A stretch of 64,000 nucleotides of DNA from Mucilaginibacter sp. (GTDB lineage Bacteria > Bacteroidota > Bacteroidia > Sphingobacteriales > Sphingobacteriaceae): positions 248,001 to 312,000 of the forward strand of contig NZ_JANYGH010000058.1 in the NCBI RefSeq assembly GCF_025362475.1. The letters are read 5' to 3'. The notes under the pieces are model-generated. The model had not been told where the DNA came from and ran no database searches. It worked only from the letters and a program-made list of their open reading frames with translations. Positions within the stretch are counted from its first letter, which is position 1. Each line of letters starts with the position of its first letter. A program made the position numbers and the translations under genes. Of this stretch, positions 11,895 to 30,871 are shown piece after piece.

Positions 11895-12072
11895 TTTAGT
11901 ATCAAGTAGTTAGTATCAAGTAGCAAGACTGCTGTAGTAGTAAACAAACTTAGTATTATCGTTAACGGACACTTTGCGACTTACAGGTCTATCAAGTATC
12001 AAAATTAAAAATCTTGATACTTGATACTTACGACTTGATACTATCTATCGATACTAACTACTTGATACTAAA
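11895..12072. repeat. Nested palindromic repeat built on TATCAAGTA words
   Basis: The spacer between gldC and the small membrane protein contains a perfect 23-bp inverted repeat: left arm 11895-11917, right arm 12050-12072, carrying AGTATCAAGTAGTTAGTATC. A second perfect 12-bp inverted repeat (ATCAAGTATCAA) lies at 11991-12002 and 12014-12025. The same 9-mer occurs many times in both orientations. It is not a CRISPR, since there are no regular spacers. It would fold into a cruciform or stem-rich RNA. Confidence 0.85.
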
Positions 12073-23496: not shown

Positions 23497-23561
23497 GGTT
23501 TAGAGAAGAGGGATCAAAAATCTTGATTCTTGACTCTTAATTCTTGACTCTCTCCTCTCTT

Positions 23562-27325: not shown

Positions 27326-27386
27326 AATGTTTTTTTATTGATAAAAACATTATGCGTCAATTTTGTTTGGGCAGATAGATATTTAG

Positions 27387-27625
27387 AAGGATTACAGATT
27401 ACATAACTGATTTATAAGAGCTTGCTTCTAAGGACCTCTGTAAACTTTCGTCCCCTCAGGGTCTCTCGCAGAGGACCCTGAGGAACCATGCAGGTCCAAT
27501 TGCATAGTATTATACTTTGCAAACGGCCTCAGGGTCCGCTGCGAGAGACCCTGAGAAGACAAAAGGATTACAGATTACATAACTGATTTATAAGAGCTTA
27601 TTCTTGAAGGTTTCTGTAAACTTAA
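27387..27625. repeat. Double-hairpin element flanked by 61-bp direct repeats
   Basis: A 115-bp element at about 27448-27562 starts CGTCCCCTCAGGGTCTCTCG and ends CTGAGAAGAC. Its two ends are each a hairpin (CCTCAGGGTC with GACCCTGAG), and the two ends are also complementary to each other (28 of 29 bases). It is flanked by direct copies of a 61-bp sequence, 27387-27447 and 27563-27623. The first 37 bases of these copies are identical and the rest diverged. The remainder of the 27326-27787 gap shows no gene. Confidence 0.88.
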
Positions 27626-28626: not shown

Positions 28627-29247
28627 ATGAAGTTATCGCAACCGCTAATTTATTTTGTTTTTTTGTTGTTGATAATCAATTGTAGCAAGAGTTACGGGCA
28701 AAATAGTATCATGTCAAAATTCTATTTTCCAGGCCAGTTAGGTTTAAGTTTCCCTCATGTTGATGATCAAAAATTAAATTTAAAAAAAGGTTTTATGCTT
28801 ACAACAGCGCTGGAGTTTAGGCCGGTTGATGGCAATGCCCTATTTATCAGATTTAATTATGATGCGATAACCAACCATTACCAGGAAGTTTATTTAAACT
28901 CCCCCACTAATGTTAACACGGGTAAACTGTCTTCCTCTATTTTTTCTCTCGGTTTAGGATATCGCCACAAGGCGGGCATTTTTAAATTATTTGGCCTTTT
29001 GCAACCCGGCTTAGGTATCAATAATTACGACAAGGTAAATTTTAACACAGAAACAATTACTGTAGAGCAGGTAAGCCGCAGGCATTTATCATTTAAAATT
29101 ACTGCAGGCGCGGAGTATTACCTGGCCGAGCATTTTGCATTAACAATTGAGCCATCTTACTTTTACCTGTCTCCACGCGGTAATTACAGGTTGCTAAACC
29201 CGCAAAGCTTAAATCTTAGCCTGGGCTTTACAACAACGTTATTTTAA
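28627..29247 (+). CDS. Outer-membrane beta-barrel protein, unknown
   Basis: A 206-residue secreted protein with a signal peptide (LIYFVFLLLIINCSKSYGQN). Cys18 is not in a good lipobox, so it is probably cleaved after SYG. The mature part is beta-rich with alternating hydrophobic residues (FSLGLGYRHKAGIFKLFG, LSFKITAGAEYYLAEHFAL), ending SLGFTTTLF with a terminal Phe. This is typical of small barrels. It is 26 bp downstream of the hydroxylase gene and shares its strand. The function is unknown. Confidence 0.75.
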   Translation: MKLSQPLIYFVFLLLIINCSKSYGQNSIMSKFYFPGQLGLSFPHVDDQKLNLKKGFMLTTALEFRPVDGNALFIRFNYDAITNHYQEVYLNSPTNVNTGKLSSSIFSLGLGYRHKAGIFKLFGLLQPGLGINNYDKVNFNTETITVEQVSRRHLSFKITAGAEYYLAEHFALTIEPSYFYLSPRGNYRLLNPQSLNLSLGFTTTLF

Positions 29248-29275: not shown

Positions 29276-29543
29276 AAACGTAAATACCATTTCGTCCCCT
29301 CAGGGTCTCTCGATAGAGGACCCTGAGGAACCATGCAGGTCCAATTGCATAGTCTAATACTTTGCAAACGGCCTTAGGGTCCTCTGCGAGAGACCCTAAG
29401 GAGACAAAGAAACGTAAATACCATTTCGTCCCCTCAGGGTCTCTCGATAGAGGACCCTGAGGAACCATGCAGGTCCAATTGCATAGTCTTATACTTTGCA
29501 AACGGCCTTAGGATCCTCTGCGAGAGACCCTAAGGAGACAAAA
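29276..29543. repeat. Two tandem copies of the double-hairpin element
   Basis: Copies at about 29293-29409 and 29427-29543 match the element at 27448-27562. They are separated by a repeated 17-base AAACGTAAATACCATTT, which also precedes the first copy. The inner part (ACCATGCAGGTCCAATTGCA) is nearly the same in all three copies. The 3' arms read CCTTAGG/CCTAAGG instead of CCTCAGG/CCTGAGG, so both sides of the local hairpin changed. The spacer after the second copy leads straight into the ArsB-like gene. The minus-strand ORF here is only the repeat read through. Confidence 0.9.
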
Positions 29544-29629
29544 ATAAAACGTATATGCTGCTTAATGTTGATTTTTTATGCAGAAACTTTTCCTGTAGCT
29601 GGCTAAATTATAACATCTTTGAAAACAAT

Positions 29630-30871
29630 ATGAGTCATATTTACATCTGGATAATTTCCTTTTTGGCTATAGCAGGCGTTATTATAAGGCCATTTAAAAT
29701 ACCCGAAGCTGTTTGGGCCCTTGCGGGCGCGGTGCTATTGCTTGTTTTGGGGCTGATTCCCTTTTCGGATGGATTAACCGGCATTGGCAGAGGCACTGAT
29801 GTGTACCTGTTTTTAACCGGCATGATGCTGCTTGCCGAAACCGCACGAGAAGAAAAACTGTTTGATTGGCTGGCAGCACATGCCACCAGGATGGCCAAAG
29901 GATCTGCAAACCGGCTTTTTTTATTGATTTATATCGTAGGTGTTGTAGTTACCACCTTTTTATCAAACGATGCCACGGCTGTTGTACTTACCCCCGCCGT
30001 AGCCGCGGCCGCCAAGGCGGCCAGGGTTAATAAACCTCTTCCCTACCTGCTTATCTGTGCTTTTATTGCTAATGCGGCCTCTTTTGTAATACCTATATCC
30101 AACCCGGCCAACCTGGTGATATATGGCCGCCACATGCCGCCCTTGCTGCATTGGTTGCATCAATATGCTTTACCTTCATTTTTTGCCATTGTTGCTACCT
30201 ATTTTATGCTCCGTTTTACGCAAAGGGCTGCCCTGAAGGAAAAAATAGCAACCGATATAGCTATACCTACGCTATCTACTGGCGGTAAAACGGCTATTAT
30301 AGGCATTGCGGCAACAGCCGTCATTTTACTGGTTTCTTCGGCATTTGATATTCAGCTGGGTTTGCCTACTGCCATTACTGGGATATTGACTTCGGCAATA
30401 GTTATTATTAGTGCCCGCAAAAATCCGTTGATAGTGATCAAGGGGGTATCATGGGCGGTACTTCCGCTTGTAGCTGGTTTGTTTATAATTGTTGAAGCGC
30501 TCAATAAAACAGGTATCACACAAACACTAACAGACCTGCTACATCAAAGCGCGGCAAATTCAGTAACCGGTACGGCCTGGGGCAGCGGTATAATTACCGC
30601 TGTTGCCTGCAACCTCATGAATAACCTGCCGGCGGGCCTTATAGCAGGAACTGCTGTACAGGGCAATTTACCTGAGCTTGTAAAAAGCGCAATCCTTATC
30701 GGTGTTGACCTGGGGCCAAACCTTTCCATTACCGGATCGCTGGCCACCATCTTGTGGTTAGTTGCCCTGCGCCGCGAAGGGCTAAACATAACCTTCTGGA
30801 CATTTTTAAAACTTGGCGCATTGATCATGACTGTTGCATTGTTCTTTGCAATAGGCGCGCTTTGGATATAG
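29630..30871 (+). CDS. ArsB-like anion/arsenite permease
   Basis: A 413-residue protein with about 11 hydrophobic helices. TFLSNDATAVVLTPAV and ISNPANLVIYG are the paired re-entrant half-repeat motifs of the ArsB/SLC13 ion-transporter superfamily, and the length is close to ArsB. It would export arsenite or antimonite, or move another anion. No arsR or arsC is near. The track starts 25 codons upstream; the ATG at 29630 gives the usual short N-terminus. It starts about 87 bp after the tandem hairpin elements. Confidence 0.8.
   Translation: MSHIYIWIISFLAIAGVIIRPFKIPEAVWALAGAVLLLVLGLIPFSDGLTGIGRGTDVYLFLTGMMLLAETAREEKLFDWLAAHATRMAKGSANRLFLLIYIVGVVVTTFLSNDATAVVLTPAVAAAAKAARVNKPLPYLLICAFIANAASFVIPISNPANLVIYGRHMPPLLHWLHQYALPSFFAIVATYFMLRFTQRAALKEKIATDIAIPTLSTGGKTAIIGIAATAVILLVSSAFDIQLGLPTAITGILTSAIVIISARKNPLIVIKGVSWAVLPLVAGLFIIVEALNKTGITQTLTDLLHQSAANSVTGTAWGSGIITAVACNLMNNLPAGLIAGTAVQGNLPELVKSAILIGVDLGPNLSITGSLATILWLVALRREGLNITFWTFLKLGALIMTVALFFAIGALWI

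Follow-up and report, generated by a model that had tools for sequence, protein, structure and literature searches.

REP hairpin pairs in a Mucilaginibacter genome belong to a genus-wide family associated with a RAYT group

Three BIME copies in the window

The window analysed here, which is the whole 64,000-nucleotide stretch of Mucilaginibacter sp. DNA, contains a 134-bp unit that occurs twice in tandem (29276-29408 and 29410-29542, 98% alike), and a third, related copy of the repeat is located at 27446-27563. The tandem copies, referred to below as copies 2 and 3, are flanked by two plus-strand genes: 28627-29247, whose product we guess from its sequence to be an outer-membrane-type protein, and 29555-30871, which by a similar guess may encode a transporter-type protein. 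The element is a BIME, that is, a spacer enclosed by two REP hairpins of opposite orientation, and all six REP units of the window are intergenic. The features are given below by window coordinates and strand.

27385-27445, +: left flank direct repeat (U) of BIME copy 1, whose other genomic copy is found only just right of BIME copy 1
27446-27563, +: BIME copy 1, composed of a TTTCGTC foot, REP hairpin, spacer, inverted REP hairpin and GACAAA
27454-27483, +: left REP hairpin unit of copy 1
27527-27556, -: right (inverted) REP hairpin unit of copy 1
27563-27623, +: right flank direct repeat (U) of BIME copy 1
29276-29289, +: short flank repeat (AAACGTAAATACCA) preceding copy 2
29290-29408, +: BIME copy 2
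29294-29297, +: GTCC, the unpaired foot of the left REP unit of copy 2
29298-29328, +: left REP hairpin unit of copy 2, CCTCAGGGTC-T-CTC-GATA-GAG-GACCCTGAGG
29332-29351, +: inner spacer of copy 2 with a small ATGCA..TGCAT stem
29372-29401, -: right (inverted) REP hairpin unit of copy 2, carrying the compensatory C-G to T-A change
29410-29423, +: short flank repeat, second copy
29424-29542, +: BIME copy 3 (tandem duplicate)
29432-29462, +: left REP hairpin unit of copy 3
29506-29535, -: right (inverted) REP hairpin unit of copy 3, with one broken pair (GGATCC)
29545-29556, +: flank repeat, degenerate third copy (TAAAACGTATAT)

A duplicate of the 17 bases that precede the first tandem copy had been reported to separate the two, and AAACGTAAATACCATTT is present at both 29276 and 29410 as an exact match. 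The tandem array would have arisen by a later duplication of the flank together with the element.

The repeats are not confined to the window. The palindrome pattern of the unit has 15 perfect matches in this genome (9 on the plus and 6 on the minus strand), and the query detected about ten further sites distributed over several contigs of the same genome, including a triple array on contig C52. The perfect-palindrome pattern is present in 82 of 150 genomes of the same genus, and the reversed control pattern gave no matches across these 150. Among 60 sampled relatives, the repeat was found in the same genus only (21 genomes). The window repeats are part of a genus-wide Mucilaginibacter REP family. 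In the closest relatives retaining the upstream genes, the element is missing from both window sites (27446 and 29276); a clean empty site is unreadable at the window locus, since the downstream stretch differs in close relatives.

The REP unit, as derived from 143 distinct units, begins with an unpaired GTC(C) foot, followed by the stem C[T/G]CAGGGTC and a bulged T; next come an inner stem of 3 bp and its loop of 3-5 nt, and the complementary arm completes the hairpin. The foot bases stand at fixed positions 5' of the stem, with G in 134, T in 132 and C in 118 of the units, and the foot is thus GTC(C), not GTAG or GTGG. When 68 distinct neighbouring pairs were sorted by orientation, 30 were +-, 13 ++, 13 -- and 12 -+. 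The inverted (+-) pairs with a spacer represent the BIME arrangement, and tandem arrays are found at loci L001, L003 and L053.

Short tandem repeats with a 14-bp period are also present elsewhere in the window, at 11896-11923, 12018-12071 and 23521-23551; the first two are built on TACTTGATACTAAC or its complement.

Covariation of the local hairpins

The preliminary description had drawn attention to a paired change in the 3' hairpin, and had proposed that the local hairpin, and not long-range pairing between the arms of the element, is the conserved structure. The change itself is real. The 3' hairpin of copy 1 (27446) reads CCTCAGGGTC...GACCCTGAG, and that of copies 2 and 3 reads CCTTAGGGTC...GACCCTAAGG, so that CCTCAGG/CCTGAGG is replaced by CCTTAGG/CCTAAGG; both sides of the stem are altered and the local stem is kept. 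At the same time, the 3' arm becomes a poorer partner for the 5' arm (CCTCAGG). Copies 2 and 3 stem from a recent tandem duplication, so that this double change has to be counted as one event and not two. Copy 3 additionally carries CCTTAGGATCC, a G-to-A substitution by which one local pair is lost.

The proposal was borne out by the 143 distinct units, in which covariation extends beyond the positions originally noticed and includes the inner pairs. The second outer pair is GC in 83 units and TA in 56, and thus 139 of 143 are paired, compared to a shuffled mean of 73.9; none of 1000 shuffles reached the observed value. The inner pairs are T-A in 104, C-G in 32 and G-C in 5 units at one position, and C-G in 108 and T-A in 32 at the other. 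Covariation was counted in columns outside the search anchors, AGGGTCT and GACCCT, and the constancy of the anchored parts, including the bulged T, is not independent evidence. Moreover, of 88 cells at positions that differ between the two units of one BIME, 79 retain the local pair and 41 the long-range pair. Because local pairs outlast long-range pairs in this comparison, it can be concluded that the local hairpins are the conserved structure.

Folding energy was considered as an arbiter between the two forms and set aside, as the computed energy of a single copy favours long-range pairing over two local hairpins and does not settle the matter. Folded as single-stranded DNA, one copy lies far beyond chance expectation (z = -8.2); the tandem pair folded as RNA gives z = -13.2.

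The small inner ATGCA...TGCAT stem, which had been called conserved as well, is found in the copies of this genome, but mainly there, and its covariation is weak (34 of 500 shuffles match the observed score). We therefore do not regard it as a conserved functional hairpin.

Paired changes could also be produced without selection on the hairpin, by quasi-palindrome correction, i.e., template switching in the hairpin during replication. Hairpins are known to become perfected in this way, and it is compatible with such a process that copies 2 and 3 owe their double change to a single event. However, the foot and the bulged T remain imperfect throughout the genus, of which only the foot counts as independent because the bulged T belongs to the search pattern, and several alternative pair types persist across species. 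We thus consider quasi-palindrome correction an unlikely source of the paired changes.

A RAYT group bracketed by the same hairpins

Weak Y1_Tnp matches in congeners are located close to hairpin copies. These belong to a group of REP-associated tyrosine transposases (RAYT/TnpA_REP) which, within the genus, is flanked by the inverted hairpins on both sides within 400 bp at 24 of 26 complete loci, a count that includes the three seed loci that first pointed to the group; on at least one side, all 26 are flanked. No hairpin of this kind lies within 400 bp of any of the 33 other Y1_Tnp genes in the genus (Fisher P = 1.5e-14). The hairpins are also enriched in genomes with this RAYT: the median number per genome is 6 in RAYT-positive (n=33) and 0 in RAYT-negative genomes (n=117; P = 6e-11), a statistic that ignores shared ancestry. 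Since 51 of the 117 RAYT-negative genomes have at least one hairpin, gene loss or a missed gene is needed to account for them.

The RAYT protein has about 190 aa. It passed the NCBIfam model NF047646 (REP_Tyr_transpos) narrowly, with 81.1 bits at a cut-off of 80, and stays just under the Pfam Y1_Tnp cut-off. Its sole PDB sequence match is TnpArep 4er8, a RAYT bound to a REP hairpin, and the same entry is the best fold match of the predicted structure (pLDDT 84.7; TM-score about 0.5). In an alignment of 20 homologues, H60 and H62 (HUH) and Y145 are invariant, NHVH is found in nearly all and SS in all, and the tyrosine motif is mostly YIHHNP. There is no WQ motif between HUH and Tyr; at the place where W-Q would be expected the protein has F124-E125-x-S-F-D-A-K.

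The association reaches beyond the genus. Significant flanking inverted repeats of the same style were found at 43 of 49 RAYT loci, nearly all of them from other Bacteroidota genera (one is from Mucilaginibacter), and in 65 of the 137 units flanking those loci GTC is found at a constant distance from the stem. In some Cytophagales, TTC or CTC takes the place of GTC. Separately, REP-like flanking hairpins whose internal arms or loops extend over tens of bases were noted at L241, L244, L253, L254, L257 and L262, in Chitinophagaceae and related taxa; as they keep the GTC foot and a GGGGT[CT] core, these long-armed hairpins are possibly a further variant. Several RAYT genes of the group (L096, L115, L116, L117, L118 and L120) contain in-frame stops, and the gene thus seems to decay often, with the REPs persisting.

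In the window's own genome, no member of the RAYT group was detected (best E = 1.0; the assembly is ~95% complete), and this absence holds at the sensitivity used, a missed gene being possible in an assembly of such completeness. REP activity in this genome is thus not supported, and the simplest reading is that its REPs have been orphaned by loss of the RAYT gene.

The same genome has four other Y1_Tnp genes, L020-L023, on contigs C36, C73, C17 and C13. Each of them lies among palindromes of its own, as at L023, where ACTTACGAAGTTTTAAAAACTTCGTAAGT is found on both sides of the Y1 gene, and this arrangement points to several more systems of the REP type in the genome. It could be argued that one of these transposases, and not the absent RAYT group, mobilised the REPs of the window. 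However, all four are included among the 33 genes that lack the hairpin within 400 bp, and the palindromes flanking them are different ones. We therefore rejected them as partners, and find mobilisation by another Y1 transposase of this genome very unlikely.

Proposed origin and relation to described REP systems

We propose that the element is a BIME of the REP family used by this Bacteroidota RAYT, mobilised in trans, and that the copies in the window are orphaned; we give this reading a probability of roughly 0.92. The window repeats are most likely non-autonomous elements that were formerly mobilised in the form of single-stranded DNA hairpins. By analogy with the REPtrons of E. coli and other bacteria (PMC8266576), recognition of one REP by the RAYT would take place on single-stranded DNA and rely on the hairpin, bulged T and unpaired GTC(C) foot, and the HUH-Y centre of the enzyme would cut nearby with the foot serving as a guide. 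Copies of REP and BIME would be disseminated by the RAYT in trans during replication. As regards the window alone, this is a modest result: remnants of mobile DNA.

It had also been hinted that the repeats might be a structured RNA with a transcript of its own. Covarying stems and the strong RNA fold of the tandem pair are what would be expected of elements kept for their RNA fold, such as a 3'-UTR stabiliser, an attenuator or a small RNA, and copies 2 and 3 do lie between two genes of the same direction. However, hairpins acting as DNA yield equal covariation, no Rfam match was obtained in the window at gathering thresholds, and neither a terminator-like nor a promoter-like site is seen at the element. 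Moreover, in congeners these hairpins stand in inverted orientation on either side of a REP transposase gene, and the unpaired foot and the bulge, which are conserved here, are among the features that TnpA_REP reads in known REPs (PMC8266576). The dispersed REP/BIME character of the repeats makes a structured RNA unnecessary, and we judge that it has hardly any chance of being the correct account. Even less can be said for a MITE of a classical DDE transposon, the probability of which we regard as negligible: the ends are inverted repeats (TTTCGTC...GACAAA) and direct repeats flank some copies, but each end is a complete hairpin by itself, single units and several orientations occur, there is no fixed short target duplication, no DDE transposase gene was encountered between such termini, and the gene found between the repeats is a Y1/HUH RAYT.

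The proposed REP-RAYT system closely resembles REP/BIME and TnpA_REP of E. coli (REPtron Ec; PMC8266576) in its paired, inverted hairpins, which are imperfect, bulged and preceded by an unpaired foot, in its tandem BIMEs, in having two hairpin types in one BIME, and in the bracketed HUH-Y transposase gene. It differs in its foot, GTC(C) instead of GTAG, and in having a one-T bulge where E. coli has an AA-GC mismatch. In the E. coli RAYT, the region linked to GTAG comprises W94 and Q95, and the described consensus of the REP foot is GT[AG]G (PMC6006769); the Mucilaginibacter RAYT has FExSFDAK in place of these W-Q residues. Judged from the sequences, a joint change of foot and RAYT region relative to E. 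coli would fit co-evolution of the two, and the joint difference (GTAG/W-Q versus GTCC/FExSFDAK) offers a direct test of the guide reading.

Among described classes, the Bacteroidetes TnpA_Y1 subclass 2.6, or RAYT group 5, is characterised by WQ, YIH[QN]NP, NH[LIV]H and SS motifs and by weak, atypical flanking structures without GT[AG]G (PMC6006769). The group studied here shares with it the occurrence in Bacteroidota, NHVH, the SS motif, flanking structures that are also present elsewhere in the genome, and the lack of a GT[AG]G foot; unlike subclass 2.6, it has no W, its tyrosine motif is mostly YIHHNP, and its hairpins are strong, with a defined GTC(C) foot and a bulge. CGTC-tagged REPs have a stem of 8-9 bp beginning with AT, a CCA tail and, according to that report, no dedicated transposase (PMC3733652). 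Our REPs resemble them in being palindromic, in a foot that is often CGTC or TGTC, and in their frequent occurrence as pairs of opposite orientation, but a dedicated RAYT exists here and the stem begins with C[T/G]CAGGG. The CGTC superfamily, considered because of the TTTCGTC start, was therefore rejected: the stem begins with C[T/G]CAGGGTC, has a bulge and is not followed by a CCA tail. With a GTCC foot and a RAYT devoid of the WQ motif, the system stands apart from the described REP classes on both counts. Our data thus define a REP class characterised by a GTC(C) foot, which is linked to one RAYT group across Bacteroidota. In the literature searched, which lay mostly outside subscription journals, no mention of a RAYT together with Mucilaginibacter was found, and an earlier description is possible.

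The BIMEs are frequently adjoined by direct repeats of their flanks. Flush direct repeats were detected at 14 of 50 BIMEs compared to 3 of 383 random controls, most BIMEs thus being without one. The flank repeat of copy 1 (U) is 61 bp long, 89% identical and absent from the rest of the genome, and some arrays end with an additional copy of the flank. Insertion of a BIME might be accompanied by a long duplication of the target flank (~17-60 bp), or the element might provoke one, giving arrays of the form (flank-element)n-flank. However, since some of the cases are a plain tandem duplication (L053) or involve other repeat families (L004, L048), we treat long target duplication as a possibility and not as a finding, and consider it rather improbable. 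If true, long flank duplication would be a footprint of REP spread. The intergenic stretch of L048 is present in related genomes and lacks the element there, and the flank repeat of this locus belongs to another repeat family. At L004 and L005 (contigs C6 and C71 of the window's own genome), BIME copies are adjoined by another dispersed repeat, TGTCATCCTGAG...GAAGGATCTATT...CAGGATGACAAA, which resembles the CGTC/TGTC-tagged REPs.
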